A stretch of DNA of 51,575 nt from Sedimentisphaerales bacterium (GTDB lineage Bacteria; Planctomycetota; Phycisphaerae; Sedimentisphaerales; UBA12454): the NCBI GenBank assembly GCA_016930635.1, contig JAFGGI010000014.1, positions 1 through 51,575 on the forward strand. Reading direction: 5' to 3'. The notes beneath the pieces were generated by a model that saw only the letters and a program-made list of their open reading frames with translations, did not search any database and was not told the DNA's origin. The position numbers were made by a program, and so were the translations under genes. The first letter of the stretch is position 1. Each line of letters begins with the position of its first letter. This document shows, one piece after another, positions 466 to 16,855 of this stretch.

Positions 466-903
466 ATGAAAGCGAAGAAATCAATGAGAACTGGCTTTAC
501 GCTGGTTGAGCTCGCGGTAGTCATTGTGATTATCGGCGTATTAGCAGCTTTTGCTGTACCGCGTTTCAGAGCTGCGGTAGAGCGCTCAAAAGCTGCAGAA
601 GCCTTTAATTATCTGGCTTCTTTCCAGGCAGCACAGGAAGTTTATCACGCAAGGATGGGTACATATGAGACTAATACAGCTAACCTTGATGTAACAATGA
701 GTGCACCTAAGTATTTCAGCGCAGGTACTGTTACAAGTCCATCCAGCGACATCGAAGTTGACTGGTCTTTGACCCTGACACGTTCTGGCGCTACAACTGG
801 TTATGGCGCTTATACAGTCGTATACACCAATGAAGGCTATGATTCAGCCAACAGTACTATTGAGTCTCATTCTGACATCAATCCGATGGCAACAACTTCA
901 TAA
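466..903 (+). CDS. Type IV pilin / major pseudopilin paralogue 1
   Basis: A 145-residue prepilin. The start at 466 is chosen over 427 because AAGGAGATAAAG precedes this ATG and it gives a short basic leader. The class III signal is visible: MKAKKSMRTG followed by FTLVEL, with Gly at -1, Phe at +1 and Glu at +5, then a hydrophobic helix (AVVIVIIGVLAAF). A predicted amphipathic helix runs on to about residue 65. The C-terminal head contains PKYF, WSLTLTRSG, GYGAYTVVYT and INPM, all shared with the other array members. Prepilin peptidase should cut after Gly10 and the product would assemble into a pilus or pseudopilus. It is probably co-transcribed with the next gene, since there is no terminator between them. 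Confidence 0.9.
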   Translation: MKAKKSMRTGFTLVELAVVIVIIGVLAAFAVPRFRAAVERSKAAEAFNYLASFQAAQEVYHARMGTYETNTANLDVTMSAPKYFSAGTVTSPSSDIEVDWSLTLTRSGATTGYGAYTVVYTNEGYDSANSTIESHSDINPMATTS

Positions 904-959: not shown

Positions 960-1379
960 TTGAGAAGGATAATTAAAAGAAGTGGTTTTACACTGGTCGA
1001 ACTTGCGGTAGTCATTGTGATTATCGGCGTACTGGCTGCTTTTGTCGTACCTCGTTTCAGAGCTTCGATCGAGCAGTCAAAAGCTGCCGAGTCATTTAAC
1101 TACTTAGCTTGCGTACAGACAGCCCAGGAATGTTATTATGCAAAGTGGAGTACTTATGCTTCAGATGTAAACGATCTTGAGATTAAATTCAACATGCCTA
1201 AGTATTTTACGGTGGGTTCTATCGTTGCCGGCAGTACAGGCGACATTGAAAGTTCCTGGTCTTTGACTCTTACGCGCACCGGCGGTACGTCAGGTTACGG
1301 CAACTATGAAGTAATTTTCACGGAAGAAGGATTTGACTCGACAAGCAGTACTATCCCGAGTCAGGTTAGCCCGGTGTAG
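960..1379 (+). CDS. Type IV pilin / pseudopilin paralogue 2
   Basis: A 139-residue prepilin starting at TTG 960. A stop codon lies just upstream in frame and no ATG is available before the leader. The leader MRRIIKRSG is followed by FTLVEL and a helix nearly identical to paralogue 1. Head blocks are PKYFTVG, ESSWSLTLTRTG, GYGNYEVIFT and a shortened C-terminus ending SPV. With paralogue 3 it forms a subgroup (GNYEV, CxQxAQECYY) distinct from paralogues 1, 4 and 5 (GAYTV, INPM). A Rho-independent terminator follows at 1421. Role: structural pilin or pseudopilin subunit for the machine encoded downstream (inference from context). Confidence 0.88.
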   Translation: MRRIIKRSGFTLVELAVVIVIIGVLAAFVVPRFRASIEQSKAAESFNYLACVQTAQECYYAKWSTYASDVNDLEIKFNMPKYFTVGSIVAGSTGDIESSWSLTLTRTGGTSGYGNYEVIFTEEGFDSTSSTIPSQVSPV

Positions 1380-1808: not shown

Positions 1809-2228
1809 ATGAGAAAAACAGTTAAAAGATTTGGTTTTACATTAGTTGAACTTACAGTAGTAATTATAATTATTGGTGTTTTAGCCGGTTTTGTACTGCC
1901 TCGTATGAAAAATTCAATTGAACAGTCAAAAGCTGTAGAGGCCTTCAACTATCTGGCCTGCATACAGAGAGCGCAGGAATGTTATTACGGTGCCAAATCT
2001 ACCTATGCTTCGGATATTAATGATCTTGAGATAAAATTTGAATTGCCGAAATATTTTACCGTTAACACAGTTACAGCAGGTGTTACAGGTGATATCGAAA
2101 GTTCCTGGTCTTTGGTTCTTACACGTGCTGGCAATACCTCAGGTTTCGGGAACTACGAGGTAGTATTTACTGAAGATGGTTATGATTCGACAAGCAGCAG
2201 TATCCCAACAGAGGTTGCTCCCGTATAA
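1809..2228 (+). CDS. Type IV pilin / pseudopilin paralogue 3
   Basis: A 139-residue prepilin. ATG 1809 is preferred over the in-frame TTG at 1785 because GAAGGGGG lies at good distance before it and the leader then has the family length (MRKTVKRFG). FTLVEL with E5 and a hydrophobic helix follow. The head has LPKYFTV, ESSWSLVLTRAG, GFGNYEVVFT and a C-terminus ending APV. It is closest to paralogue 2. It stands alone between repeat module B and its own terminator at 2261, so it is probably a monocistronic unit. Function is inferred as a pilin or pseudopilin subunit. Confidence 0.88.
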   Translation: MRKTVKRFGFTLVELTVVIIIIGVLAGFVLPRMKNSIEQSKAVEAFNYLACIQRAQECYYGAKSTYASDINDLEIKFELPKYFTVNTVTAGVTGDIESSWSLVLTRAGNTSGFGNYEVVFTEDGYDSTSSSIPTEVAPV

Positions 2229-2302: not shown

Positions 2303-2440
2303 AAATTCATTTTTTAGGACCTCGATTGCTAATCAGCAAGGTCCTATAACAATTTGGAATACACAGAAAAGGTTACTTTTATTGTGGTTTAACAATGTCG
2401 TATTAAGTTGTTTTTTTATTGTGCCGGATTCAATTAGACA
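2303..2440 (+). repeat. Pilin-array intergenic module, copy C
   Basis: A full copy of the module: TTTTTAGGACC near 2312, GGTCCTATAACAATTT at 2340, and ATTAAGTTGTTTTTTTATT with GTGCCG ending near 2426. The spacing from the GTCC block to the TTATTGTGCC block is about 75 bases, as in copies D and E. A TTGACT sequence at 2456 with AT-rich sequence after it may hold the promoter of the next gene. Nothing else is seen in the 2229-2554 gap apart from the terminator. Confidence 0.65.
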
Positions 2441-2554
2441 GGATTTTAAGCTTAATTGACTTTTATTTTTTATAATTTATATGGAAAACTATGTGCAACA
2501 CGGGGATATACGGCCGGGAAAAAGGTGCGTATATTACGGGTGTTGTAACGAGAT

Positions 2555-3028
2555 ATGAAAAAATCGATTGTGAAAATCAGTTTTACGATGATTAAGATAC
2601 TTGTAGCTACTTTGGTTATCAGTTCTCTTGCTAATCACGCCATAGGTGATCCGACGGTAGGTCTGGATACCAGGATACCTCTGCCCAAATATTTCACCGT
2701 AGGTACGCTTATGGCGGGCAGTACGGGCAGTCTTGAAGATTCATGGACACTGACTCTTACGCGCACTGGCGCCACAACAGGTTACGGGGCATATACGGTA
2801 ACATATACAGAAGAGGGCTATGACCCGGATAACAGCACGATAGAGAATTTCCCAAATATTAATCCTATGCATGTCGATTCAGATGAAGGTGGCGGTCAAG
2901 GCGGTGGTACGCCTCCCGGTCAGGGCGGCACACCTCCCGGTCAGGGCGGCACACCTCCCGGTCAGGGCGGCACACCTCCTGGTCAGGGCGGCACACCTCC
3001 TGGTCAGGGCGGCGGCAGAGGTCATTAA
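2555..3028 (+). CDS. Pilin-head secreted protein with GGTPPGQ repeat tail (paralogue 4)
   Basis: A 157-residue derived pilin. The N-terminus KISFTMIKILVATLV aligns with the pilin leader and helix, but Gly-1 is Ser and Glu5 is Lys, so normal prepilin processing and assembly are doubtful. After 20 or so hydrophobic residues comes HAIG-DP, an AxG site that would suit signal peptidase I after Gly31 (inference). About 42 residues present in paralogues 1-3 (the rest of alpha-1 and the next loop) are missing. The head is kept: PKYFTVGTLMAGSTG, SWTLTLTRTG, GYGAYTVTYT, INPM. Residues about 113-154 are five TPPGQ units spaced by Gly pairs. It is likely exported, with the head displayed or bound to a partner. 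The function is unknown. Confidence 0.75.
   Translation: MKKSIVKISFTMIKILVATLVISSLANHAIGDPTVGLDTRIPLPKYFTVGTLMAGSTGSLEDSWTLTLTRTGATTGYGAYTVTYTEEGYDPDNSTIENFPNINPMHVDSDEGGGQGGGTPPGQGGTPPGQGGTPPGQGGTPPGQGGTPPGQGGGRGH
2902..3012 (+). repeat. 21-bp tandem repeat encoding GGTPPGQ
   Basis: About five near-identical 21-base units (core GGCACACCTCCCGGTCAGGG) at the 3' end of the gene. They differ mainly at one synonymous C/T position. The unit length is a multiple of three, so copy-number change would lengthen or shorten the tail without breaking the frame. Confidence 0.9.
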
Positions 3029-3109
3029 TTTATAGCAGTAACATTAAACATTTTTTCTGATTTTCCAATTCATTAGTAAAAACAGTCAGTTCTCTACACC
3101 TAATCAATC

Positions 3110-3245
3110 CATTTTTTTTCGGACCTTTCTTTTTGTAAATCCTCATCTTTTAACGTCTCATAATAAACAAAGGAGGAGTAAAAAACAGCTTTTATTAGAG
3201 CTATAAAATCTGGCATTAAGCGACATTTTTATTATGTCGAAAGTG
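3110..3245 (+). repeat. Pilin-array intergenic module, copy D
   Basis: The block TTTTTTTCGGACCTTTCTTT at about 3113 matches copy B almost exactly. CGTCTCATAATAAAC follows at 3154, and ATTAAGCGACATTTTTATTA with TGTCGA ends at 3240. The ACTTTTATTTTTATATTTTA block near 3284 also aligns with the corresponding position in copy C. The 3029-3398 gap holds no other gene. Confidence 0.65.
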
Positions 3246-3398
3246 ATTATAACCGTATTTTAAATAAAGATTTGGATTAAAAGACTTTTATTTTTATATT
3301 TTATAGTGAATAAAAAGATTAAAAGCAGCTTTTGATGACGCAGCACAGAGGAAGAGGTAATGAATGAGATTTTGGTTTAGTGCAGAAGAGATGAGAAA

Positions 3399-4367
3399 AT
3401 GAAAAAACTAATTGTAAAAAAGAGTCTTACGGTTATTAAAATATTGGTCGCAGCTTTGCTTGTCGGCGCTTTGACTAATCACGTCGAAGGTGATCCGACA
3501 GCAACTCTTGAGAGTTTTGATTTAACTCCGCCTCAGTATTTTTCACTCGGCACTCTTGTAGAAGAGCCAAGGGGCGATCGTACATGGACCTTGACTCTTA
3601 TGCGCCAAGGATCCACGGCAAGTTACGGGGCATATACGGTAACATATACCGAAGATGGTTATAGTCCGACCGAAAGTACGATAGAAGGTTTTCCGTCTAT
3701 CAACCCGATGTACGTACCCGGCTCGGACCCTGTAGCAACCCTGCGTGAAGAAAGATATACAACACAAGCGGTAAGAGCAGCAGACAGGGCAGCTACTTAT
3801 GCAACATCAGCGGCGACATCGGCAGACAGAACAGTTACGTACTTGGGCAGAGCGGCAGCACAGGCAGATACTGCAACAACGCGGATAGACAGGGCGCAGA
3901 CATACTCAGATAATGCCACTACTTATTTAGAACGAATAGAAACAGCAACAACACAGGCACGAGCAGATCTATTTGCAGATAGAGCGGATAGACAGGCAAC
4001 GGCTTCAGAAAATCAGGCAGCGGCAGCTCAAACAAATGCAGATAGAGCAGCAACATATGCAGCGGCAGCGGCAGTGCAGGTAGACAGATTGGAACTATTT
4101 ATAGAAAGAGCACAGGCTCAGGCAGACAGAGCTGTGGCAATGGCAGAACTGACGCCGGAATATGAGGCGACAGCGGCTATAGCACAGTCTGTAGCATCAG
4201 TACAAAGAGCACAGGCAGAATTGCCGGGGGCCCAGGCAGCGGCAGCAGCGGCGTTATTAGAGGTACAAAGAGCTATTGAAGCAGCGGCAGCAGCAGCGGT
4301 AGTAGCTGAAGAAGCCAGGGCAACAGCAACGGCAGCGGCAGAGGCGGCAGCGAATTGGGGAACATAA
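3399..4367 (+). CDS. Pilin-head secreted protein with long Ala-rich helical stalk (paralogue 5)
   Basis: A 322-residue derived pilin, sister to the preceding gene. The N-terminus KKSLTVIKILVAALLVG again lacks Gly-1 and has Lys at position 5. HVEG-DP gives a plausible signal peptidase I site after Gly31, the same position as in paralogue 4. The head (residues about 44-105) has PPQYFSLGTL, TWTLTLMRQG, SYGAYTVTYT and INPM. Residues about 117-320 are extremely rich in Ala with regular Asp-Arg and Gln spacing (QADRA, ADRAATYA), with no Cys and almost no Gly or Pro. That predicts a continuous helix or coiled-coil stalk. It ends NWGT. Probable exported or surface protein; partner and role unknown. 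A tiny ATG ORF at 3391 overlaps the start. Confidence 0.75.
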   Translation: MKKLIVKKSLTVIKILVAALLVGALTNHVEGDPTATLESFDLTPPQYFSLGTLVEEPRGDRTWTLTLMRQGSTASYGAYTVTYTEDGYSPTESTIEGFPSINPMYVPGSDPVATLREERYTTQAVRAADRAATYATSAATSADRTVTYLGRAAAQADTATTRIDRAQTYSDNATTYLERIETATTQARADLFADRADRQATASENQAAAAQTNADRAATYAAAAAVQVDRLELFIERAQAQADRAVAMAELTPEYEATAAIAQSVASVQRAQAELPGAQAAAAAALLEVQRAIEAAAAAAVVAEEARATATAAAEAAANWGT

Positions 4368-4449
4368 AAAAATAAAAAACTTTGCCGTTTGAGAAATATT
4401 TTTTCGGTTCTTAGTATCATCAGTTAAAATCGACACTTCTTTACGACCA

Positions 4450-4590
4450 GCCAATCCAAATTTTTTTCGGACCATACCTAAAAAATTTTGCGCCACCTGC
4501 GTCCCATAATAATTTAAAATATGGGGAAAAAGGGGTTTTTCCTGGGGTTATAGAGTATCGCGTTAAGTCATTTTTTTATTATGTCGAATT
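4450..4590 (+). repeat. Pilin-array intergenic module, copy E
   Basis: The blocks are ATTTTTTTCGGACC near 4460, GCGTCCCATAATAATTT at 4499 and GCGTTAAGTCATTTTTTTAT with TATGTCGAAT ending near 4588. Spacing between the second and third blocks is about 75 bases, as in copies C and D. Nothing else is seen in the 4368-4672 gap. Confidence 0.65.
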
Positions 4591-4672
4591 TAACGTAACG
4601 GTACTTACTGACAAGAGCTTATGTCAGTCTGTGTAAATTTGAAAAGCTTTGACTTGTTGTAAGGAGATGAAA

Positions 4673-4774
4673 GTGAAAGCGCGTAGTTCGATGGTAAGCG
4701 TATGCTTTGCGCTGATCGAGCATTTAGAAAAAGTAAAGAGCCTGTGTAACGGGTTTAACGAATTTACGGAATAA
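4673..4774 (+). pseudogene. Truncated pilin remnant (paralogue 6)
   Basis: A 33-codon frame starting at GTG 4673, preceded by AAGGAGATGAAA (an ATG at 4667 is also in frame). The start VKARSSM aligns with MKAKKSM of paralogue 1, and CFALIEH aligns with GFTLVEL with a one-residue shift. The hydrophobic helix and the head are gone, and the frame ends at TAA 4772. It sits after repeat module E, in the position where the array would have its next pilin. It is probably a decayed copy, or a short leader peptide coupled to the next gene, whose ATG lies 5 bases after its stop. Confidence 0.55.
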
Positions 4775-4779: not shown

Positions 4780-6264
4780 ATGCCAGGTATTATGGACAAG
4801 CTGTGTTGGGGCAGGGCCATTGGTGTCTATTACAGTGAAGACCGTGTAAGTATCACTGATGTTAATAGCACACTTAAGGGTTCGACTATTCTGAATCAGC
4901 AGGAGTTTAAACTTGCTGAGGAGGAACCGGTACAGGCTTTGACGAATATACTGCAGGAATATATCAAAGAAAATGAAGTGAAAAAGGTTCCGGTATGTTT
5001 CGGGTCAAAACCTGAACGAACATTTTTCACTACTTCTATTATGGAATACGGCGAAGAAGAGCAGCTTCGTGACAAGCTTCTCGAACGTGTTGGTTTCCGT
5101 AAGCCGGAAGAGCGAAACGGTATTGTTGCCGAATATTTCGGAATAGACAAAACCAAGACACCGACAAGTCAATTATGGAGTATTGGTATATGCAAGAAGA
5201 AATTCGCCAGTGAGCTTTACTCTGCAATAAGGCAGGCTGGTTTCAGGGATATTTTATTTAAAGCTACTCCGTGGGCATTGTCCAGTTATGCAATGACACT
5301 TCCGAAGGAAAGCAAAGACTGGAAAGTATTCATACAGGTCTTTCTCGGTGAGACAGAGGGCCTGGCTGTACTCGTAGTAGAGAAGGAACCTGTTTGCTGG
5401 AAGAAATTCAGTATCACGCCTACCACAGCTATAGCGAACATCGAACACGCTATAAAGAACCTCTCAATGCAAAGTGCCGTTACATTATCCCGGCCGAGGG
5501 TCGATGGAATCATTCTGCAGGGCTCCGACGCCGGGAAATTAAGTGCCAAGCTTTATGAAGAAATGAATATTGAAACTCTGGTTGCAGATGGTCCCGGATA
5601 TACCGATTCGCAGTGCAGTCACAGTCTGGCGATGTCAGCCAAGTCAAAAAACAGCGAGCAGTTTAACCTGTTCCGTGAGTTAAAACCTGATCCGACTATT
5701 CTGGAAATGTTCCCCTGGCAACTGGCCGTGATGGTTTTACTTATGGTTGGCTGCATGGGTGTTATGATGTGGCAAAAGGCTTCGAGACTTGCCAGGAGTT
5801 ACGCTGTTCTGGAACAGCAGGATGCGCTGCATACATGGGCCAGCAAGAAACAAACTTCAGATCTTTCCAAAGAGCGAACCTCGCTTTTAGCTGAGACCAG
5901 ATCAGTAGAAAAGTTCCTTGCAACCCGGATAGTGTGGAGTGACTACCTTAGAGAATTGCCGACTCGGCTTCCGCCTAATGTGAGCTTGTCGACTTTGTCA
6001 GGAGAATGTGGTTATAAAGGAGGCGACGAGAAGGGCGGAAAGACGAAGAAATCTCTGACTCTTGCAGGGACGGTTCTGGTTGAGGAAGGCGGGGGATCGC
6101 CTGAGGATATAGGTACTTTTGTAAGTGCCTTGAAAGAACTTGAATTACTGAAGAAGGATTTCCCTGAGGTTGAACTGGCAGAGATAAAATGGCGTCGTAA
6201 AGGGGAGAGCGAAGTAGCGTCATTTACCGTTATGGCTTTGCCAAAGAAGGCTAAAAAGAAATAA
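4780..6264 (+). CDS. PilM-PilN fusion (GspL-like) assembly protein
   Basis: 494 residues. The N-terminal ~300 residues have the layout of the PilM/GspL actin-like domain (start CWGRAIGVYYSEDRVSITDV). FNLFRELKPDP then resembles the PilN N-terminal motif, followed by one membrane segment (about 311-331), a short coiled coil (335-385) and a periplasmic PilN-like domain (SDYLRELPTRLPPNVSLSTL, then VSALKELELL). In type IV pili PilM is cytoplasmic and PilN membrane-bound; here they form one chain, as GspL does in type II secretion. It heads the machine operon. A second ATG at 4792 is a possible start, and neither has a strong ribosome site. Confidence 0.8.
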   Translation: MPGIMDKLCWGRAIGVYYSEDRVSITDVNSTLKGSTILNQQEFKLAEEEPVQALTNILQEYIKENEVKKVPVCFGSKPERTFFTTSIMEYGEEEQLRDKLLERVGFRKPEERNGIVAEYFGIDKTKTPTSQLWSIGICKKKFASELYSAIRQAGFRDILFKATPWALSSYAMTLPKESKDWKVFIQVFLGETEGLAVLVVEKEPVCWKKFSITPTTAIANIEHAIKNLSMQSAVTLSRPRVDGIILQGSDAGKLSAKLYEEMNIETLVADGPGYTDSQCSHSLAMSAKSKNSEQFNLFRELKPDPTILEMFPWQLAVMVLLMVGCMGVMMWQKASRLARSYAVLEQQDALHTWASKKQTSDLSKERTSLLAETRSVEKFLATRIVWSDYLRELPTRLPPNVSLSTLSGECGYKGGDEKGGKTKKSLTLAGTVLVEEGGGSPEDIGTFVSALKELELLKKDFPEVELAEIKWRRKGESEVASFTVMALPKKAKKK

Positions 6265-6282
6265 AGTTAAAGGACAGGATAT

Positions 6283-6825
6283 ATGGAACTCGGTATAGAC
6301 AAAGCAAAAATCATGCAATACAAAGCGATTGCTGAGCAGTATCTGAGCGACCCTATTAAGCTGCGTTTGTTTACAGTAGGCGCTGTGCTTTTGCTGGGTG
6401 CTGCTGCCGTCTATTTGCCCATTTCCACGAAGATAGACGAGTATAATCATTTTCTTTCAGCGGCCAAGGAACGGAATCAATTTATCGCTGATTGTGAAAA
6501 ACTTCAGAGACAGGCTTTGAGTTTTCGTCCTCTTATTGAGAGTAAACCTGATACGAATGAATGGATCAGTTATCTGCTTGATGGTCTGAGACAATTTCCT
6601 ATTAAGCTGTTGGGAATGAGTGCGAAGAAACAGCAAAGTGTAGGTCCCTATAAAGCTGCTGTTTTGGAGATAGATGTTGGAGGACCTTATCAGGAACTTA
6701 AAAATTATATTGAATGGCTGGAAGGTTCCGGAAAGCTGCTTCGAATTGACAAACTTCATATGTCGCAGGGTTCGAAGGGGCTGACAATGAGAATTATTGT
6801 TCTTGGGATTATACCGAAAAAATAA
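6283..6825 (+). CDS. PilO/GspM-like inner-membrane assembly protein
   Basis: 180 residues: a cytoplasmic N-terminus, one membrane helix (about 27-48, FTVGAVLLLGAAAVYLPI), a short coiled stretch and a periplasmic ferredoxin-like domain (ISYLLDGLRQFPIKLLGMS, YQELKNYIEWLEGSGKLL). This is the PilO/GspM plan, and the protein would partner the PilN-like half of the previous product. The identification rests on topology, order and the YxxLxxYIxxLE pattern, not on close identity. An AAAGGACAGG ribosome site precedes the start. Its stop overlaps the next start by one base. Confidence 0.75.
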   Translation: MELGIDKAKIMQYKAIAEQYLSDPIKLRLFTVGAVLLLGAAAVYLPISTKIDEYNHFLSAAKERNQFIADCEKLQRQALSFRPLIESKPDTNEWISYLLDGLRQFPIKLLGMSAKKQQSVGPYKAAVLEIDVGGPYQELKNYIEWLEGSGKLLRIDKLHMSQGSKGLTMRIIVLGIIPKK

Positions 6826-7418
6826 TGTTAGAGATAGTTAACAGATTTGTTTTGTTTATTGCTATGGGTGTTATCGGTTACCTTACGTATACCGCATTGA
6901 GTGAAACTGCAATAAAACTGGAAAAAGGGGCTGAAGAGATGCCAAAGGACCTCAAAAAAATACTTGTTCCGGCGTTTGTTGAGTCTCATTTGCATAACAG
7001 TCCGGTTAACAGGAATCCATTTATTATCGGCAAGGATGACTACTTTAATCCTGCCACTTCGACTCTTGCAAAACAGTCCGGCAAAAAAGCTGCCAGCAAA
7101 AATTCTGTCGGAAAATTAATGGGAATAGTTATTGGTGCAGATGGCCATAGATTAGCCTTAATTGACAGCGAGATCCGCAGAGTTGGTTCATTAGTCGAAC
7201 TGCCTGATTCTGATGCGTTATGGGAAATTCAGTCAATTAGTGATAAAGAAGTTGTTTTGACCAATGAAGGAAAGCAGGTTGTCCTTAGAATCCCTGGTCT
7301 TTATATGGACCATGGTACTGTCGGAACGGATACGACGAAAGTTAAAGAAATGGACGCTCAAGAGACTGAAGAAATGGATGTAACAGAAACCGAAGAAGAA
7401 AGGGAATCTGAACAGTGA
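6825..7418 (+). CDS. PilP/GspC-like periplasmic linker protein
   Basis: 197 residues with an N-terminal membrane helix (about 5-25), then a linker containing NPFIIGKDDYF, and a beta-rich domain (about 98-160: KLMGIVIGADGHRLALIDSE, VGSLVELPDSDALWEIQSI, VVLTNEGKQVVLRI). This resembles the homology region of GspC/PilP, which docks the inner-membrane complex onto the secretin. The C-terminus is very acidic (ETEEMDVTETEEERESEQ). The start overlaps the preceding stop by one base (TAATG) and the stop overlaps the next GTG start by four, so translation is probably coupled. Confidence 0.7.
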   Translation: MLEIVNRFVLFIAMGVIGYLTYTALSETAIKLEKGAEEMPKDLKKILVPAFVESHLHNSPVNRNPFIIGKDDYFNPATSTLAKQSGKKAASKNSVGKLMGIVIGADGHRLALIDSEIRRVGSLVELPDSDALWEIQSISDKEVVLTNEGKQVVLRIPGLYMDHGTVGTDTTKVKEMDAQETEEMDVTETEEERESEQ

Positions 7419-9247
7419 GCGAAGCCTTTACAACAGATCAGCCGCTTTTGATTCAGTTGCTTCTGAAACGAGGCCTGATCAAGCAGGAAGACCTCAAGAA
7501 CATTCGTGAGGCTAAGAACCGAATGAATTGCTCGATGGAAGAAGTCTTGGCTGCTTTGAGTCTTGCTACTGAGCTTGATATTGCCGAGGCCTATAGTGAG
7601 GAACTGGAAATACCACTGGTAGAACAGGACCAGCCTCTTATAGGCAATAAGAAGTTAGCCGAGATGATTGGTGAAGCAATTTGTAGTGAGCATCATTTTG
7701 TGCCTCTGAGTAAAGAGGATAATATTATTCAGGTTGCCCTGGCAGACCCGACAGATTTGATGCTGCTTGAGCGGATTGAGCTGGCTACAGGTCTTGTTGC
7801 TAAGCCGGTCATAGCCACTTCTTCTATGGTTAATAATGCTCTTGGTAAGATATTTGAGACGTGTGATTTTGTAAATGAGGGGCCGCCGGAAGATGAAAGA
7901 CCGCCTATGGACATGGAAATGGATGATGACGGACCAATCCTGGATGGTGATGAAGAGGAAGAAGATGAAGAAATATTGGATCTTAATTATACTCCTTCTA
8001 TCGATGCTGATACAACAAGAGGCAATGATGGTCAGGTAATCAGGCTGGTTAACCACATCCTGACCTCGGCAATAGAAAATGATGCGAGTGATATTCATAT
8101 AGAGCCTTTTGAGAAGAATGTTAAGGTTCGCTTTAGAATAGACGGCGAGTTGCATGAGATTGCTCCGCCGGGCAAGGCTATGTATGTGCCGATGGTAAGT
8201 AGATTGAAAATTCTGGCTAAGATGGATATCGCTGAAAAGCGTATCCCGCAGGATGGAGCTATAACGTTAAAGGCGGGAGATGCCAAAATAGATTTGCGTG
8301 TAAATACTGTGCCGACGGTTTTCGGTGAGAAGATGGCTATACGTATCTTGTCCAAGGGTGTGATACCTAAAGACCTGACTAAGCTTGGGTTTTCGAAAAA
8401 GCAGGCGGATAATTTCAAAGAAGCTGCTGAAAGTCCTCATGGCCTGATGCTTGTTACCGGACCAACTGGTAGTGGAAAAACAACGACGTTGTATAGTGTG
8501 CTGAACTTGGTTAACAAGCCGAATGTTAACATAATGACCGTCGAGGATCCGGTAGAGTACAAGTTTGAAGGTATGAACCAGGTACATGTTCGAAGCCAGG
8601 TTGGTCTGACCTTTGCCGCGGCGTTAAGAGCATTTTTAAGACAGGACCCGGACATAATAATGGTTGGTGAGATTCGTGACCAGGAAACTGCACAGATATG
8701 CTTAAGGGCGGCACTGACAGGACATATGGTGTTTTCGACCCTGCACACAAATGATGCTCTGGCATCGATAAATCGTTTGGCAGATATGGGAGTCGAAAAG
8801 TTTTTGCTTGCTTCGGCACTTCGGCTGGTTGAGGCCCAAAGGCTTGTCAGAAGGCTGTGTGCAAAATGCAAAGAGAAATATCAGATAGATAAAGATACGG
8901 CTAAAAGGTGGGGCCTTAATCCTGACAAGCCGTACTACCGCACCAAGGGATGTGAAGATTGCAGAGGTTGCGGATATAGCGGGCGAGTAGGACTTTTTGA
9001 AGTTGTTTCTATAAGCCCGAAACTTAGAGATATGATAAGCGAAGGAGCGCCGCTTAGCGAATTACGTGCAATAGCTCGAAAGGAAAAGTTTATGCTGTTG
9101 TTCGATGCGGGTATGCAGAAGGTAGAAGAGGGACTGACCAGTCTTGAAGAAGTAATGCATACCTGTATGGAAGAGGTAGCAGAAGAAGAAAGTAATGTAA
9201 CCGAGGATGTGGTCCTCGAAGAAGCAATGTATTCGGATATAACTTGA
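7415..9247 (+). CDS. GspE/PilB-family assembly ATPase
   Basis: 610 residues, GTG start. The N-terminal GspE-N (MshEN-type) domain covers about 9-150, followed by a strongly acidic linker (about 155-190). The ATPase core contains NDASDIHIEPFE, the Walker A GPTGSGKTT (349-357), the Asp box (TVEDPVEY), Walker B DPDIIMVGEIRD (411-422) and the His box (STLHTNDA). CxxC pairs at Cys482/485 and Cys513/516 form the usual GspE/PilB zinc element. It powers pilus or pseudopilus extension at the inner membrane. No PilT-type retraction ATPase is present in the window, which leans toward a type II secretion-like role (inference). Confidence 0.95.
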   Translation: MSEAFTTDQPLLIQLLLKRGLIKQEDLKNIREAKNRMNCSMEEVLAALSLATELDIAEAYSEELEIPLVEQDQPLIGNKKLAEMIGEAICSEHHFVPLSKEDNIIQVALADPTDLMLLERIELATGLVAKPVIATSSMVNNALGKIFETCDFVNEGPPEDERPPMDMEMDDDGPILDGDEEEEDEEILDLNYTPSIDADTTRGNDGQVIRLVNHILTSAIENDASDIHIEPFEKNVKVRFRIDGELHEIAPPGKAMYVPMVSRLKILAKMDIAEKRIPQDGAITLKAGDAKIDLRVNTVPTVFGEKMAIRILSKGVIPKDLTKLGFSKKQADNFKEAAESPHGLMLVTGPTGSGKTTTLYSVLNLVNKPNVNIMTVEDPVEYKFEGMNQVHVRSQVGLTFAAALRAFLRQDPDIIMVGEIRDQETAQICLRAALTGHMVFSTLHTNDALASINRLADMGVEKFLLASALRLVEAQRLVRRLCAKCKEKYQIDKDTAKRWGLNPDKPYYRTKGCEDCRGCGYSGRVGLFEVVSISPKLRDMISEGAPLSELRAIARKEKFMLLFDAGMQKVEEGLTSLEEVMHTCMEEVAEEESNVTEDVVLEEAMYSDIT

Positions 9248-9268
9248 AATATATAAGGTAGTGTATAA

Positions 9269-10381
9269 ATGGCTCAAAAAGTGATAAGTCGTTCCGGACG
9301 CTCCTGGATACAGAAGCATATAAGGGTGTCCTCTAAGATGCATAGATGGATTAAAAATGAAGATAAGATGCAGTTTTTCCATCATCTTACGACGCTGTTT
9401 TCTGCCGGGACACCGCTATTGGAAGCTTTGCAGATAGCTTCCCATCAGACACAGAGCAGGAGGATGAAGGACGTGATTTTACAGGTAACAAACAAGGTCT
9501 CTGCGGGCAACTCGCTTAATCAGGCACTGTCGGATTTTCCAAAGATTTTTGAGACGCAGTGGGTGGAAATTATTAAGACCGGTGAATTAAGCGGACAGCT
9601 TACACAGGTTCTGACTGCTTTGGGTGAGCACATAAAGGAAAGCAAAGAGCTTCATACTAAAGTTGTCTCGGCGATGATTTATCCTATTATAATGTGTGTT
9701 GTTGCTGTTGCTGCGGTTGTGATAATGCTCTGGAAAGTAGTTCCTGTGTTCACGGCATTCTTTGAGGATTTCGGCTCAAAACTGCCGCCTATTACGCAGG
9801 TGGTTGTAGATACTTCAGCATTTCTTCAGCAGAGAGGTTTAATGATGCTTGGATGTATTGCTGTTGGGGTGTTTTTAGCACGTATGTATTTCAAAACTAA
9901 GAAGGGCAAAAGTCTGTTAGACAGAGCGTTGCTGAGCGTACCTATGATTGGCGAGCTTATTGTTTATGCGAATATGGAAAAGTTTGCCACTAATATGGTT
10001 CTTCTTCTTGAAAATGGTTTGCCGATGATGGAAACACTGGGCTCTCTAAAGGGAGTTTTTACCAATTCTGTTTATCAGGAAGTGATAGATGAGATTCAGC
10101 ATAAAGTCTCCGGCGGCAGCGGTTTAACTGTTCCTATGGAAGAATCAGGGCTGTTTACATCTATGCTTGTTTCTATGGTCAAGATCGGCGAAGAATCTGG
10201 TGAATTAGTAAAAGTGCTTCGCGAGGTAGCAGTATACTATCGAGACAGATTAAAAGAAATTGTTGAACGTGTAGTTGTTTGTATTGAGCCAGTTGTGATT
10301 GTTGGTATGGGAGTCAGTGTTGCTGTGATATTGACATCGATTTATTTGCCAATGTTCCAGATGGCTTCCGGAGTTAAGTGA
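9269..10381 (+). CDS. GspF/PilC inner-membrane platform protein
   Basis: 370 residues with two T2SSF domains. The first begins FFHHLTTLFSAGTPLLEALQ and contains VEIIKTGELSGQL. The second begins FATNMVLLLENGLPMMETL and contains MVKIGEESGELVKVLREVA. Three membrane segments lie near 125-150, 185-205 and 335-360, the normal GspF layout. It forms the platform on which the ATPase acts. The gene follows the ATPase by 21 bases in the same operon. Confidence 0.95.
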   Translation: MAQKVISRSGRSWIQKHIRVSSKMHRWIKNEDKMQFFHHLTTLFSAGTPLLEALQIASHQTQSRRMKDVILQVTNKVSAGNSLNQALSDFPKIFETQWVEIIKTGELSGQLTQVLTALGEHIKESKELHTKVVSAMIYPIIMCVVAVAAVVIMLWKVVPVFTAFFEDFGSKLPPITQVVVDTSAFLQQRGLMMLGCIAVGVFLARMYFKTKKGKSLLDRALLSVPMIGELIVYANMEKFATNMVLLLENGLPMMETLGSLKGVFTNSVYQEVIDEIQHKVSGGSGLTVPMEESGLFTSMLVSMVKIGEESGELVKVLREVAVYYRDRLKEIVERVVVCIEPVVIVGMGVSVAVILTSIYLPMFQMASGVK

Positions 10382-10395
10382 AAGGATAGTAAACG

Positions 10396-10764
10396 ATGAG
10401 TCCTATGGGATCTAATCCGACGTTGTCTCACGTGGAAAAGCGTGCTTATGCACGTGTGCCGTTTACAAGAAAACTGGTGGCACGTGACTTAAAGACAGGA
10501 AAGAAATATTGGGCCAACGGAATAGATATAAGTGTTATGGGTATAGGTTTTTTCTCGAAGAAGTTTTTCCCGAAGAACGACCGTGTATCTGTTCAGGTTT
10601 GGCTGGATAGCCAAGGCAAGGTAGACCCGGTTTGGATGAATGGGACTGTTAAGTGGGCAAAGCTCGAACAGGGCGGGGCAATCATCGGTATCCAGTTTGA
10701 CTCTCTGATAAAGTCTGCGGAGCATCCGGAATTGTACAAACAAATTTATGAAACGACAGCTTAA
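10396..10764 (+). CDS. PilZ-domain c-di-GMP-binding protein
   Basis: A 122-residue single-domain protein. It has both PilZ ligand motifs: RAYAR (R16-R20, the RxxxR motif) and DISVMG (44-49, the D/NxSxxG motif), then a beta barrel ending GAIIGIQFDS. PilZ proteins with these residues usually bind cyclic di-GMP. Its place between the platform and secretin genes suggests it couples c-di-GMP level to activity of this machine (inference). A GGATAG sequence precedes the ATG. The next gene starts 19 bases downstream. Confidence 0.85.
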   Translation: MSPMGSNPTLSHVEKRAYARVPFTRKLVARDLKTGKKYWANGIDISVMGIGFFSKKFFPKNDRVSVQVWLDSQGKVDPVWMNGTVKWAKLEQGGAIIGIQFDSLIKSAEHPELYKQIYETTA

Positions 10765-10783
10765 TTAAAAATTAAGATAGAAC

Positions 10784-12994
10784 GTGGATATAAGTAAGTT
10801 AAAAAATGTTTTGGTAACATATGCTAAGCGGTTGAAACCCTCAACTAAGCGGCAGGACTCTTCAGTTGAAGGATCCCCGTCTTCAGCAGGACGGTTAAAT
10901 TCTTTAGCTGGGCGTTTAAAGCCGCTGATGGAGAAGTTACAGCCGTATATCGGGCGCTTTATACCGTCTGATAAGCGCAAACGTATGATGGCCGCAATAG
11001 GTATTGTACTGGCTATAGGTCTTTTGGTCGGCCTGAATTCGTTTTTAGGCAAAAAACCAAAACTAATAATGGCACAGAATATCCCGGTCAAAAAGAATAC
11101 TAATACGCAAAAACCGGCCGGCAAAAAAGCTGCAGATGGTAAACCTGCTTCAGAGATTGAGAAAATAGTTGATGACGCTAAAAAGGCAACTTTAGCAAAA
11201 CTCAATGTCGAAGGCCAGGAAACTGCTGAAGACGAGAAACCGGTACAAAATGTTATATATGGCGGTGAAATTATGAGTGCAGAGGAAGTTGCTAAAATTA
11301 ACGCAGCTGCCTCTGGAGGTTCTGCTGCTGACGATAGCCAAAGACCGTCTGCGGTTGAGTTCTCACCAGTAGAGCCTGAACAGGTTGATCTGTCTGCAAA
11401 TGTTGGAGATGTTAAGTCCGGCATACAATCGTTAGTCTTTATGAGATATATGCCGATAGTAGATGCTCTCCAGCTTTTAGCTGCCCGGTATGGGCAGAAT
11501 ATTGTTCCGATGACGCAAATTAGCGGAAACATCGGATTTACCAAATTGAACAACGTAAGTTTTGACGAGGCAATGAATGCAATTTTAGGAGGAGACTTCA
11601 AATATGAGCAGGAAGGAAACATAGTAAAGGTATATTCCGCCGGTGCGTCAAAGAAAGCAGAACCGATAGAGGAGGAAATGGAATGTAAAGTATTTACCTT
11701 ATATTATATTACTGCGGCAGAGGCAAAGAAGATGATTCTGCCTGTAATAAGTAATGCCGGCAAGCTTGAAACTACAACTGCTGCAGATACTGGTGTACCG
11801 GTTGATGAAACAGTTTCTGCGCCGAGCGGCGGAGGAGATACACTTGCTCTGAATGATATGATAGTTGTATATGATTATCCTGTTAATATAGCACAGGTTG
11901 AAAAGATACTGACTGCTATAGATGTCAGACCAAAACAGGTTCTGGTAGAAGCAACAATACTTACAGCCACACTTACTGATGGTATGCAGTTTGGTATAGA
12001 CTGGAGAAATCTAAGAGGTGCTGTTATTAGCGGTATAACTGGTTTGGGACACACCATACCGGATTATTATGGTTTTGGCGGCACTTCAACGCAGGTAGGT
12101 TCCGGTATTTCGGCCGGCAGCGGTCTTACGATTGGTATAGTGGAGGATGATATTGCAGCATTTATCAGAGCGGTAGAGGAAATTACGGATGTAACAATAT
12201 TAGCCAATCCAAAGATTTTGGCCACTAATAAACAGCTTGGGCAGGTTTATATCGGAACAAAGGTTGCTTATCAGTCGTCAACGACACAGACCGAAAGTTC
12301 GACTACCCAGCAAGTGGACTTTATCGATACAGGTACAAAACTGTCCTTCAGACCATATATTGGTAACGACGGCTATATAAGGATGGATATCCATCCTAAG
12401 GATAGTTCAGCTACGATTAGGACAATTGGCGATCCTGAAACCAGTACAGTCGCGATGCCTGATGAAACATCAGCCGAGCTGGTTACAAATATTATAGTTA
12501 AAGATGGCGAAACAATAGCCATTGGCGGTCTTTTCAGGAATAAGACCCACACAGCAAAGAAGCAGGTGCCGGTACTTGGTGATATACCTATTCTTGGTAC
12601 AGCTTTTAAGAGTAATGCTGATGAGACTAAACGGGAAGAGGTAATTATCCTGCTGACGCCGCATATTATTAGTGAACCATCGCAGACCAGAGGTGAGGAA
12701 AGGTCTGCCGATGTTGCTCGCAAGAGTATGGGAGCTAAAGAAGAACTTCATTCCGCGGACAGAATGAAACTTGCTGAGGATAATTATGAACAGGCAGCAT
12801 TGTATTATGCCCAGGGCAGAAATGACGAGGCATTAAAGAAACTCGAAACAGCTCTCTGGTTATATCCATCTTATCTTGAAGCGATTAGGCTTGAGGAGAG
12901 GATTTATAAGGAAACAGATAAATCGAAGAAACCTATGACGGAAATTGTAGAAGAGATTGAACAGCCGAAATTGGAGAAATGGCGAAGAAGGTAG
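10784..12994 (+). CDS. Secretin (GspD/PilQ family)
   Basis: 736 residues, GTG start. Residues 1-67 are basic with repeated RLKP/RLN segments. A membrane helix spans about 69-88 (AAIGIVLAIGLLVGLNSF), and a long Lys/Ala-rich linker follows. An STN/N0-like domain starts near 210 (FMRYMPIVDALQLLAARYG), then a secretin N domain (CKVFTLYYITAAEAKKMI), then the secretin channel domain (LVEATILTATLTDGMQFGID through VPVLGDIPILGTAFKS and REEVIILLTPHII). The tail has a TPR-like helix pair (YEQAALYYAQGRNDEALKKL). The 60-residue extension before the membrane helix is unusual for a secretin. A later start is possible but no better ribosome site is visible. Confidence 0.92.
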   Translation: MDISKLKNVLVTYAKRLKPSTKRQDSSVEGSPSSAGRLNSLAGRLKPLMEKLQPYIGRFIPSDKRKRMMAAIGIVLAIGLLVGLNSFLGKKPKLIMAQNIPVKKNTNTQKPAGKKAADGKPASEIEKIVDDAKKATLAKLNVEGQETAEDEKPVQNVIYGGEIMSAEEVAKINAAASGGSAADDSQRPSAVEFSPVEPEQVDLSANVGDVKSGIQSLVFMRYMPIVDALQLLAARYGQNIVPMTQISGNIGFTKLNNVSFDEAMNAILGGDFKYEQEGNIVKVYSAGASKKAEPIEEEMECKVFTLYYITAAEAKKMILPVISNAGKLETTTAADTGVPVDETVSAPSGGGDTLALNDMIVVYDYPVNIAQVEKILTAIDVRPKQVLVEATILTATLTDGMQFGIDWRNLRGAVISGITGLGHTIPDYYGFGGTSTQVGSGISAGSGLTIGIVEDDIAAFIRAVEEITDVTILANPKILATNKQLGQVYIGTKVAYQSSTTQTESSTTQQVDFIDTGTKLSFRPYIGNDGYIRMDIHPKDSSATIRTIGDPETSTVAMPDETSAELVTNIIVKDGETIAIGGLFRNKTHTAKKQVPVLGDIPILGTAFKSNADETKREEVIILLTPHIISEPSQTRGEERSADVARKSMGAKEELHSADRMKLAEDNYEQAALYYAQGRNDEALKKLETALWLYPSYLEAIRLEERIYKETDKSKKPMTEIVEEIEQPKLEKWRRR

Positions 12995-13004
12995 GAGATT
13001 TTTG

Positions 13005-13463
13005 ATGTATAAAGCCGGCAAAAACAGGTTTGGAAAAAAAGGTTATACGCTTTTGGAAGCGCTTGTTGCGGTGATCATTATCGGAATTCTGGTCAGCGTC
13101 GCAGCGCCGATATACAAAACAGCGGTTGAACAGGCTCGGCTGGATTCTGCAGCCGGGAATTTAAAGACAATATGGTCGGCACAAAGAGCGTATTGGCTTA
13201 AACATCGTACTTTTGCCGATAATCTGGCAGCATTGGAAACCGAAGATTTAGTAAGTGTCTCACTGGAAGAAACGCAGATTTCGACGGATGCCAAATATGT
13301 GTATGATATAGATATGGCCACGGCTGATACTTTTACAGCTTCTGCTGTCAGAAGCAACAGCAGTGCCTGGGACGGCGATGTACAGATTAATGAGCTTGGT
13401 CAGATCACAGGAAGTATAACCCATACGGACGGTCTTGTGCTTTCGCCTCAAACGTTAGAGTAA
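13005..13463 (+). CDS. Minor pseudopilin, GspG/GspH-like
   Basis: 152 residues from ATG 13005, which has GTAGGAGATTTTTG before it. An earlier in-frame start at 12957 would overlap the secretin and lacks a ribosome site. The leader MYKAGKNRFGKKG is followed by YTLLEALVAVIIIG, with Gly at -1 and Glu at +5. The body LDSAAGNLKTIWSAQRAYWL resembles GspG-type major pseudopilins, and the tail WDGDVQINELGQITGSI is GspG/GspH-like. It is the first of four pilin-like genes closing the operon and is probably a pseudopilus subunit. Confidence 0.82.
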   Translation: MYKAGKNRFGKKGYTLLEALVAVIIIGILVSVAAPIYKTAVEQARLDSAAGNLKTIWSAQRAYWLKHRTFADNLAALETEDLVSVSLEETQISTDAKYVYDIDMATADTFTASAVRSNSSAWDGDVQINELGQITGSITHTDGLVLSPQTLE

Positions 13464-13478
13464 TAGAGGAGTGGACTG

Positions 13479-15140
13479 TTGTCAAAATATCGAGACAGAA
13501 AATTCTTTGCAGGTGCTTTCAGCTTAATAGAGCTGCAGGTAACACTGATAATACTCGCTACTGCTGTGTGGGGTTTTGCCGCACTGTTTAGAGTTTATTC
13601 ACTTCAAACTGAATTTATAGAACAGGAAACCCTTCCTGTATCAACATATTATGTGGTTAGCCAGACCAGCAGATGGATGCGGCAGCTTGGAGTCCCGGCG
13701 GATATGGCACAGGAAGCTGGCCAAACTGCCTGGGAGCCGCCGGTAGAGGTTTCTCAGGGCGGCAGCAGTATCCCAACTACAGTTGAAGTTTTAGGTTCCT
13801 GGCTGGTAGGTACGACTCATTTAAAAGAGGCCGGCACCGGCCGGGCGTTGATACTTATTACACATGCTGAGCACAACAGAGGTACGTCTTTAGATATTGT
13901 CACTTATGGCGGTCAGCCAATGACAAAAATTATCGATAGAGTCGGAACTAACGGTACTACAAGAACTTATGTTGCGGCATTTATCCTTGATGAAGCCGGC
14001 ATCACTTCTTCGGAAGTCTCTGGAACCTTTAATTTTAGCTGGAGCCGGACGCCAGACAGTGTCATATACAGCAGTGTATTTCTTGGAAATGTTGATCAGA
14101 CAACCCTTGTTGGAGATACCGCCAGTAGTAGAACCTCGAGTGGCGATGCGATAACTACATCTGCGCTTACTACCAGTTCGGGAGATATGGTCATTGATGC
14201 AGCTGTCTGCAGTAATACAGGAAGCTATACGGTAAACAATGTTTTCGATGAAGTTATGGAACCATCAATTACTGATGCTACTGCTGTAATTGGATCTAAA
14301 GTTACTACAGGAATTGATGAAACACCGAGTGTAACGCATTCGACTATAGATGGTCGACAGTCACTTATTGGCCTTGTGATTCGGATTGATCCTGCTTTAG
14401 CAGGTTCGGGCGGCACAGGTGGTACTTCTGATCCAATTAGTATCGCAGGTACATGGACAGCAGGAACAGCTCATACTGCCGAATCCGGTACGAATCGTGC
14501 TTTATTGTTTATTGCACATGCTGAGGAGAACGGCTCTACGCAGTTAGCTTCTGTAACTTATGGTGGCCGGGCGATGACGAGGATTGTTAGTGAATCAATC
14601 GGTTTTACGTATCAGGCATATGTTGTAGCATTTGTTCTTGATGAGGCAGGTATCTCTTCTGCGACTGACGATACATTTGTACCCATCTGGACCTCTACGC
14701 CCGATAATGTTTCGTATAATAGTGTATTCCTTGTGAATGTTGACCAGATAGATCTTATTGGAGAAACTGCTGTTAGTTCTATAGAAGGCAGTAATATACT
14801 GGCTACCGGTGCACTTGCTACGAATGACAGAGATATGGTTATTGCGGCTGCTACCTGCGGCAATATAGGTGATTATACACTGCTTAACAGTTTTAATGAG
14901 GCTCTCGAACAGGATATGGTTTCATCTACAGGCGCAGTTGGATATAAAGCTGCAACCGGTGCTGATGAAACACCGTCTGTGCAGCACACCAATGCCAACC
15001 GTCAGGTACTTATTGGTTTTGTAATGCAGGCTGTTGATGCGGCACCACCACTGGCTGAGTATCAGGTTCAGTTAAATTCTCTTACGAAGGATTTTGATAC
15101 TGAACAGGCCGTTGCAACGGTTAGATTATTTGAAAATTAG
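13479..15140 (+). CDS. GspI/PilV-like pseudopilin with two large beta-rich repeats
   Basis: 553 residues, TTG start with GAGGAGTG upstream. The prepilin signal is AGA followed by FSLIELQVTLIIL (Ala at -1, Glu at +5). A pilin helix and neck run to about residue 100. Two homologous ~200-residue domains follow (about 103-308 and 320-521), each with GRALxxIxHAE or NRALLFIAHAE, VTYGG, FxLDEAGI, SVFLxNVDQ, DETPSV and xxLIGxV. A short pilin-like tail (EYQVQLNSLTKDFDTEQAVA) returns at 525-553. The repeats look like an insertion into the pilin head, making a large tip or side domain. The repeated domain is not one I can name. Confidence 0.78.
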   Translation: MSKYRDRKFFAGAFSLIELQVTLIILATAVWGFAALFRVYSLQTEFIEQETLPVSTYYVVSQTSRWMRQLGVPADMAQEAGQTAWEPPVEVSQGGSSIPTTVEVLGSWLVGTTHLKEAGTGRALILITHAEHNRGTSLDIVTYGGQPMTKIIDRVGTNGTTRTYVAAFILDEAGITSSEVSGTFNFSWSRTPDSVIYSSVFLGNVDQTTLVGDTASSRTSSGDAITTSALTTSSGDMVIDAAVCSNTGSYTVNNVFDEVMEPSITDATAVIGSKVTTGIDETPSVTHSTIDGRQSLIGLVIRIDPALAGSGGTGGTSDPISIAGTWTAGTAHTAESGTNRALLFIAHAEENGSTQLASVTYGGRAMTRIVSESIGFTYQAYVVAFVLDEAGISSATDDTFVPIWTSTPDNVSYNSVFLVNVDQIDLIGETAVSSIEGSNILATGALATNDRDMVIAAATCGNIGDYTLLNSFNEALEQDMVSSTGAVGYKAATGADETPSVQHTNANRQVLIGFVMQAVDAAPPLAEYQVQLNSLTKDFDTEQAVATVRLFEN

Positions 15141-15149
15141 CAGGACGAA

Positions 15150-15656
15150 ATGAACAGGACAATATCGACATTATGTAAAAAAGCCAAAAGGGGATTCACG
15201 CTCCTCGAATTGATGGTTGTATCTCTGCTTATGTTCATAGTAGTGATGCTTACTAATCAGTTCTGGACATGGTTTACACCCAGTGTTACGGATATTATTG
15301 CCAGGGCTCATACCTTACGTGAAGCTCGTATGGCAATGAGAAGCCTTGCTGATGATTTTGGTGCTGCTGTCGGAGCAGCTCCTCTCGGCGGTAACAGACT
15401 CATACTCTGCAAAGATGGTGGTGATTTTCCAAATGGTTTGGCCGATTGGTCCGCACCTGATGTTTTAGTGGATTATTATATTGTGGACAGCTCTCTGTAT
15501 CGTAATAATGTTTCAGCAGGAACAGGGTTCGCTGTTGCGGATGGAGTAACGGGTTTTACAGTAGAACAGATTTCGCCGACACTGATTAGAATTACTCTGG
15601 ATTTAGCTGTCCGTGATTTTAGCCGTCAGTTGACCTTTATGTGGAGCCAGCCATGA
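15150..15656 (+). CDS. Minor pseudopilin, GspJ/PilW-like
   Basis: 168 residues. The leader MNRTISTLCKKAKRG is followed by FTLLELMVVSLLMFIVVML, with Gly at -1 and Glu at +5. The body has REARMAMRSLADDF, as in GspJ/PilW minor pilins, and a beta-rich head (LVDYYIVDSSLYRNN, RITLDLAVRDFSRQLTFMW). It would join the GspI- and GspK-like products in the pseudopilus tip (family knowledge). The last bases overlap the next gene's ATG (ATGA). Confidence 0.82.
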   Translation: MNRTISTLCKKAKRGFTLLELMVVSLLMFIVVMLTNQFWTWFTPSVTDIIARAHTLREARMAMRSLADDFGAAVGAAPLGGNRLILCKDGGDFPNGLADWSAPDVLVDYYIVDSSLYRNNVSAGTGFAVADGVTGFTVEQISPTLIRITLDLAVRDFSRQLTFMWSQP

Positions 15657-16855
15657 GAAGCCGCCGCAGAAATACCGGTTATGCCCTGGTTGGCACTATG
15701 ATATTTCTTCTTATCGCGATGATGATGTGGCTGAGTGTCACCAGGCAGATAGGCACACATCTTCGTATTGAGAAGAACAGTCAATCATTGCAATCATATA
15801 ATGATACTATACTTCGTGCACTTTCGTGGGGATTGGCACTTTTAGAGACCGGTGAACCGCCAAGTAATCCCTATTCCTGCAGGATGATGGTAGGCAGGAC
15901 TGGTTTAGATATATGTGTGGTAGAATTTCGAAGAACTGCCAACCTTCGCTACAGGCTAACTGCAAGACCGGCAGTTGGCGGAGATGAATCTTTACCCATC
16001 GCACCGTACAGCTTTATGGAACTTCCCGAACAGGCTACGGATCCCGACCCGCCTCACAGAGCTTCCGGTGTAAGTATAATGCCTATGCTTAGCTGGACCG
16101 CCGGCGACGGTGCTACATCACATGATATCTATTTTGGAGATGCGAATCCTCCGACGTTCCAGGGCAATCAGATAGGCACAACTTTTGACCCTGGTGCTCT
16201 TTCGCAGCTTACAAGATACTATTGGCGTATTGATGAGAGAAATGCTGCCGGCGTGACTACGGGTACCGTCTGGAGATTCAGGACTGGAACAGGTGTTCCG
16301 CCTCCGGGCCAGGCATCAAATCCGGATCCGCCTGATACTTCAACAGGTATAAGCCAGACGCCTCTGCTCAGCTGGACGGCCGGCTCTGATGCTACGTCGC
16401 ACGATGTATATTTTGGAGATACGAATCCGCCTGCGTTTCAGAACAATCAGTCAGTTGTAACTTTTAATCCGGGTACACTTGCGTCAAGTACCACTTATTA
16501 CTGGCGTATTGATGAAATAAATGCTACCGCCACGACTACAGGCGTAGTTTGGAGTTTCACAACCGGTGCATCAGCTCCAACACCTCCAGGTCAGGCAACG
16601 AGTCCGAATCCGGGTGATGGCGATAGGGGAGTAAGCCGAAGCACTCAGCTTAGCTGGACTGCCGGGTCGGGTGCCACATCGCATGATGTCTATTTTGGAA
16701 CCTCAAGTCCGGGAATATTTCGTGGTAATCAGGCAGGTACGACTTTTGACCCTGGATACCTTGCGAGACGTACGTGGTATTACTGGCGTATCGATGAGGT
16801 AAATGGCAGCGGTACGACTACAGGAACTGTCTGGAGATTCAGGACCGGCAATTAA
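15653..16855 (+). CDS. GspK/PilX-like pseudopilin carrying three FN3-type domains
   Basis: 400 residues from ATG 15653, chosen because of the ATGA overlap; an ATG at 15641 is also in frame. The N-terminus RRRNTG precedes YALVGTMIFLLIAMMMW, with Gly at -1 but no Glu at +5, as in GspK/PilX tip proteins. The globular GspK-like part is short (to about residue 120). Three tandem ~90-100-residue repeats follow, each with LSWTAG, GATSHDxYFG or DATSHDVYFG, TTFDPG, YYWRIDE and TGTVWRFRTG. These are FN3-like domains common in Planctomycetes surface and carbohydrate-active proteins (family knowledge). They may expose a binding module at the pseudopilus tip. Confidence 0.8.
   Translation: MRSRRRNTGYALVGTMIFLLIAMMMWLSVTRQIGTHLRIEKNSQSLQSYNDTILRALSWGLALLETGEPPSNPYSCRMMVGRTGLDICVVEFRRTANLRYRLTARPAVGGDESLPIAPYSFMELPEQATDPDPPHRASGVSIMPMLSWTAGDGATSHDIYFGDANPPTFQGNQIGTTFDPGALSQLTRYYWRIDERNAAGVTTGTVWRFRTGTGVPPPGQASNPDPPDTSTGISQTPLLSWTAGSDATSHDVYFGDTNPPAFQNNQSVVTFNPGTLASSTTYYWRIDEINATATTTGVVWSFTTGASAPTPPGQATSPNPGDGDRGVSRSTQLSWTAGSGATSHDVYFGTSSPGIFRGNQAGTTFDPGYLARRTWYYWRIDEVNGSGTTTGTVWRFRTGN

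Follow-up and report, generated by a model that had tools for sequence, protein, structure and literature searches.

The major pilin of Geobacter is the closest precedent for the two genes described here: it is split between GSU1496, a helix-only stick, and GSU1497 (PilA-C), an antiparallel β-head with a signal peptide, a division thought to be due to pilin gene duplication and deletion (PMC5174107). A review accepts the stick and the head as two separate proteins (PMC10191384). Modular pilins, such as Streptococcus sanguinis PilB, retain the class III signal and polymerise (PMC8179133). TcpF is a soluble, pilus-encoded protein, secreted via the pilus, that binds a minor pilin by its flexible N-terminus (PMC9565799). 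A secreted, soluble pilin has also been described in Neisseria, in which the N-terminal segment of the normal pilin is removed by cleavage and the remainder is released, according to the part of PMC3447861 that cites this work. In general, prepilin leaders always end in Gly or Ala, and cleavage occurs after that residue (PMC10191384).

The window, i.e., the whole analysed stretch of 51,575 nucleotides from a Sedimentisphaerales bacterium (contig JAFGGI010000014.1), contains a gene row in the order P1, P2, P3, D4, D5 and R6, with a pilus/type II-like assembly operon downstream (Table 1). PilB, GspF/PilC, the secretin and two pilin-like genes have NCBIfam matches, all under the equivalog cut-offs; the PilM-like gene was compared with that of Planctomycetes bacterium K23_9 (L016), and the remaining assembly genes (PilP-like and others) were named by position and order. 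The source genome (2.45 Mb, 64 contigs, 96% complete) encodes both a prepilin peptidase and a signal peptidase I, the latter a Peptidase_S26 match on contig C23 (115.4 bits, with neighbours in frame), as well as four PilT-family ATPases over the curated cut-off. It holds 36 prepilin N-terminus matches, 31 of them over the cut-off. A search of the window for known RNA families near D4 and D5 gave only tRNAs and one rRNA end.

Table 1. Features of the pilin gene row and the adjoining assembly operon (positions in the window)
Feature	Position	Strand	Description
P1 (pilin 1)	466..903	+	Intact type IV pilin, G-1/E5; comparator; N_methyl E 1.6e-6
P2 (pilin 2)	960..1379	+	Intact type IV pilin; N_methyl E 1.1e-6
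P3 (pilin 3)	1809..2228	+	Intact type IV pilin; N_methyl E 1.2e-5
D4 upstream region	2304..2487	+	Homologous to the D5 and R6 upstream regions; z 9.9 vs D5, 11.1 vs R6
D4 gene	2555-3028	+	Leader, pilin head and tail
D4 leader, 31 aa	2555..2647	+	S-1/K5, end AIG|DP; assigned by DNA homology to the P1 leader, hydropathy and the (-3,-1) rule
D4 pilin head	2648..2881	+	15/16 family-conserved residues; dN/dS 0.23 to D5
D4 Gly/Pro-rich tail	2882..3025	+	GGTPPGQ repeat, 21-nt unit, 4.9 copies; frame by codon usage
D5 upstream region	3046..3311	+	z 21.5 vs R6 upstream region, 9.9 vs D4 upstream region
D5 gene	3399-4367	+	Leader, pilin head and tail
D5 leader, 31 aa	3399..3491	+	S-1/K5, end VEG|DP; 60% identity to D4 leader
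D5 pilin head	3492..3719	+	12/16 family-conserved residues; AF2 strands 48-55, 63-69, 78-84
D5 Ala-rich tail, 215 aa	3720..4364	+	Predicted helices 111-251, 256-320; frame by codon usage
R6 upstream region	4394..4607	+	Copy of the D5 upstream region
R6, 33 codons	4673..4774	+	Remnant of a pilin leader that has neither hydrophobic core nor head; lies immediately 5' of the PilM-like gene
Pilus/type II-like assembly genes	4780..16855	+	PilM/N-like, PilO-like, PilP-like, PilB ATPase, PilC/GspF, secretin, pilin-like minor subunits

The heads of D4 and D5 are homologous to bona fide pilins. The D4 head matches P1, P2 and P3 with E values of 1e-22, 2e-21 and 2e-17, respectively, and is 63% identical to that of D5. 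Family-conserved positions are largely kept within the two heads (Table 1); in the preceding helix, D4 keeps 3 and D5 keeps 2 of the 14 conserved α1N positions, and neither keeps any of the eight in α1C. Between the two heads, pN is 0.23 and pS is 0.60, and the resulting dN/dS (0.23; Fisher p 2e-5) places the head under selection. The heads are sisters (support 94/93) in what is a weak tree of 62 columns, with D5 as a long branch; combined with the common S-1, K5, GDPT and deletion, the grouping suggests a single origin and a later duplication. Codon usage indicates that leader, head and tail are all coding in the stated frame in both genes. That D4 and D5 might be decaying duplicates of pilin genes without function is suggested by the headless remnant R6 beside them, by their repetitive tails and by the occurrence of their features in one genome alone. 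We judge decay highly improbable because of the head dN/dS, the conserved residues, the codon usage and the single shared origin; the reading frames are intact, and the derived features common to both genes have been retained since their split. We therefore regard D4 and D5 as the outcome of a single event, maintained by selection, and not as wreckage.

Homologues were collected from 13 genomes of the family, 161 of the order, a phylum sample of 392, a class sample of 397 (partly overlapping sets) and a contig collection; the phylum and class samples were drawn from larger groups, and statements of absence cover the samples. In this survey, the leader could be read in 52 distinct pilins, of which two lie on a further contig of the source genome. 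Position -1 is Gly or Ala in all 52, position +5 is Glu in 51, and the pilin anchor is present in all 52 complete relatives. Head-only relatives were found in none of the family, order, phylum-sample or class-sample genomes or the contig collection, and viral contigs contained no relatives. Three short frames (L024, L041 and L097) were rejected as head-only candidates, as their starts coincide with contig edges; in two fragments of heads (L038 and L048), no leader is in frame.

Several members of this family, whose P1–P3-type pilins occur in Planctomycetota, are noted in their own right. The sole relative without E5, L030 (genome G293), is a full-length homologue with Gly-1 and a Gly at +5 (GFSLLGVAL), and L036 (genome G526) has two homologous pilins with Ala at -1. 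A planctomycete-family pilin lies at 5710-6237 of L015, a contig labelled Oligoflexia (Bdellovibrionota), reflecting either transfer or a binning error. In the source genome, a second pilin pair (L018, 8356-9310, contig C53 of G000) consists of copies of P1 (95% identity) and P2, and a gene for a PEP-CTERM-like protein follows it; no head-only copies were seen there.

The signals that define a prepilin are lost from both D4 and D5. As the first-pass annotation had stated, Gly-1 is gone and Lys stands at +5: the leaders read MKKSIVKI-S-FTMIK in D4 and MKKLIVKK-S-LTVIK in D5, compared with ...G-FTLVE in pilins 1–3. Neither D4 nor D5 matches any Pfam or NCBIfam model at E<=1, the N_methyl and IV_pilin_GFxxxE profiles included, whereas all three neighbouring pilins match the prepilin models. 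Both have Ser where a class III leader would end in Gly or Ala ahead of the hydrophobic helix, and since prepilin leaders invariably end in one of these two residues (PMC10191384), the D4/D5 leader is a poor class III signal. The two proteins could still be pictured as atypical minor pilins, assembled into the filament after an odd cleavage behind Ser and with Lys at +5; tip subunits without Glu5 are known (PMC10191384), and D4 and D5 sit within the pilin array of the locus. We consider this very improbable, given Ser-1 in both proteins, the absent profile match and the lost α1N positions, and a deletion of α1C that bars the usual packing in a filament.

The D4 leader descends from a pilin leader. 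Its codons AGT TTT ACG ATG ATT AAG correspond to GGC TTT ACG CTG GTT GAG in P1, and neither 500 dinucleotide shuffles nor 500 codon shuffles produced a D4–P1 leader alignment as good (0/500 in each case). The DNA homology of the D5 leader to pilins, and that of the D4 leader to P2, is not significant by itself, the D5 leader having diverged too far; in the source genome, the D4 leader matches only D5 and, weakly, one pilin. A leader swap from another gene was rejected, as the D4 leader DNA aligns with that of P1. It follows from this homology that the prepilin leader was altered in place and not replaced.

What is left of the leader fits the three-part layout of a Sec/signal peptidase I (SPase I) signal. 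In both proteins, a basic n-region of ~14 residues reaching to Lys14 is followed by a core of 12 residues and a polar end of five, NH(A/V)xG, and then by Asp-Pro; a rule-based assessment thus finds n-, h- and c-regions with small residues at (-3,-1). The AxG or VxG site ahead of Asp-Pro reported at first pass is present as A-I-G in D4 and V-E-G in D5, and in both proteins its Gly is residue 31. The best 12-residue core has a KD value of 2.5-2.7 in D4/D5, 3.2-3.4 in P1–P3 and 2.7-3.1 in presumed signal peptides of the source genome. Judged from these motifs, SPase I is predicted to cleave after Gly31, so that the head would be set free in the periplasm. An alternative SPase I site exists in D4 at SLA|NH, and in D5 Gly at -1 with Glu at -2 is a suboptimal context. 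The initial proposal of pilin heads moved onto a Sec-type signal peptide is thus upheld as far as the destroyed prepilin signal, the selected head and the Sec/SPase I layout are concerned, but the heads were not moved, since the old leader mutated where it stood. That proposal did not include the new tails, the upstream region common to D4, D5 and R6, or the headless R6 itself.

A leader of this kind might also be exported by Sec and remain uncleaved. D4 and D5 would then stay anchored in the inner membrane, their heads and tails facing the periplasm, and would serve the pilus machine as accessory or regulatory subunits. The D5 model keeps a helix at residues 12-29, the 19-residue hydropathy of D4/D5 (2.0-2.1) is compatible with an anchor, and planctomycete cleavage rules may differ from the (-3,-1) rule applied. 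However, Lys at +5 breaks the hydrophobic stretch, and the 12-residue core is signal-peptide-like and short for an anchor; local pilin anchors score higher over 19 residues (2.8-3.1), and a (-3,-1)-compatible xxG|DP occurs at the identical residue in both genes. Retention as an anchored protein is therefore rather unlikely in our estimate, and we favour a cleavable signal.

The second change is an internal deletion. The AF2 model of P1 (pLDDT 88; best PDB match by Foldseek, PAK pilin 1oqw, E 2e-3) consists of a helix at residues 13-64 and strands at 84-86, 101-106 and 117-121. The segment missing from D4 and D5 is the second half of this helix; the P1 layout therefore indicates that the deletion removed α1C and the start of the αβ-loop and left the sheet. 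The net loss between residue -1 and the 'PxYF' of the head, put earlier at about 42 residues, amounts, when counted against P1, to 36 for D4 and 35 for D5. In the D5 model, the leader helix spans residues 12-29 only and is followed by three strands and long helices, so an α1 of ~50 residues with α1C packed on the head is not present. Confidence in this model is moderate for the head (pLDDT 73-85), high for residues 121-240 of the tail (88-95) and lower past 240, with a whole-model pTM of 0.35. Without its packing helix, the D4/D5 head may need a partner for folding. As it nonetheless keeps conserved core residues, it probably packs on another surface, which may be that of a partner head, of a pilin or, for D5, of its own long helix.

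The possible need for a partner helix brings these proteins close to the split pilin of Geobacter, in which D4 and D5 would be heads completing a filament subunit with a stick-only pilin. D4 and D5 are indeed separate pilin heads without a stick, each on its own gene and with a predicted signal-type leader as in GSU1497, and the GSU1496/GSU1497 pair (PMC5174107) and the accepted division into two proteins (PMC10191384) are precedents for such a subunit. The source genome, however, contains no stick-only pilin (no prepilin N-terminus occurs on a frame shorter than 119 residues; as the assembly is 96% complete, a missed gene is possible), three intact full-length pilins adjoin D4 and D5, and the R6 remnant has no hydrophobic helix. 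A two-part filament subunit is accordingly quite improbable, and the likeness to Geobacter extends to separate heads only. The locus further differs from that of Geobacter in that full-length pilins are retained, α1C was lost by internal deletion, the leader is a mutated pilin leader and long new C-terminal tails are present. Compared with the planctomycete type IV pilins themselves, D4 and D5 share the head sequence and all strands but lack Gly-1, Glu5, α1C and the prepilin profile.

The two tails differ: that of D4 repeats GGTPPGQ (Table 1), and that of D5 comprises ~210 predicted helical residues. The D5 tail has no relatives among Pfam, NCBIfam, PHROG or PDB sequences and no second copy in the source genome; structural matches were to long helices only (Z <=7.3), and no identity was drawn from them. 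Like modular pilins, D4 and D5 combine a pilin module with an addition at the C-terminus; unlike them, they have the extra tail but not the class III signal, and what is added is a simple repeat in D4 and a helical stalk in D5. Elsewhere in the window, a 553-residue pilin-like minor subunit at 13479-15140 carries two similar modules (TxAESGTNRALLFIAHAE...) after a pilin N-terminus and looks like a modular pilin, and the gene in the GspK position at 15641-16855 has three tandem modules of the SWTAGxGATSHDVYFG type. By analogy, D4 and D5 would resemble proteins of the TcpF/CofJ kind, which are soluble, have their genes alongside those of the pilus and are proposed to bind to it; D4 and D5 would bind by a pilin head, and the likeness is one of description. 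The Neisseria soluble pilin, as far as the account in PMC3447861 goes, loses its N-terminal segment from a finished protein, whereas D4 and D5 would be encoded without it.

Upstream of D4, D5 and R6 lie regions that share homology over ~200 nt (z 9.9 to 21.5), and the unit was therefore duplicated together with its control region. An upstream motif, TTNTTRTGYCSGRNW, was set aside, as it occurs 9 times in the genome, hardly commoner than its reversed control (6). R6 (VKARSSMVSVCFALIEHLEKV...) has a D5-type upstream region and stops 5 bases short of the PilM-like gene (4780). Its leader DNA aligns with that of P1 better than most shuffles (5/500 dinucleotide and 3/500 codon shuffles were as good), and codon usage favours the frame 4673-4774. 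In Planctomycetes bacterium K23_9, a single pilin gene lies directly 5' of the PilM-like gene, and R6, in the same place, may be a relic of an ancestral pilin; alternatively, it may encode an operon-coupled leader peptide.

Taken together, we consider D4 and D5 to be, more likely than not, exported, non-polymerising pilin heads. Following tandem duplication of a pilin gene within the pilus locus, an in-frame deletion took α1C and the start of the αβ-loop, and point changes abolished Gly-1, at which prepilin peptidase cuts, and exchanged Glu5, which assembly requires, for Lys. The sequences demonstrate that the pilin signals are lost, that the deletion occurred, that the leader arose in place, that the head is selected and that the tails are in frame. 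From the cleavage site onward, through export to docking or release, we infer the steps: the shortened leader would act as an ordinary Sec signal, probably cut by signal peptidase I after Gly31, and the released product would be a pilin head with a three-stranded sheet and a new tail of Gly/Pro repeats (D4) or a helical stalk (D5). We favour the view that this product docks on the pilus or exits via the pilus secretin, using the existing pilin contacts of the head; docking in particular is a tentative proposal. Equally speculative is the idea that the pilin head serves as a stand-alone docking or export tag, exported by Sec, attached to the pilus or carried through the secretin, and bearing the fused tail.

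This one row, with its intact pilins, two derivatives reduced to the head and one remnant that has no head, shows a prepilin signal being converted into what appears to be a normal signal for secretion. If the reading as a tag is true, pili would be decorated without polymerisation of the decorating protein. If D4 and D5 are exported, pilin heads would be usable as free modules, which would bear on the origin of split pilins and on how pili acquire accessory proteins.
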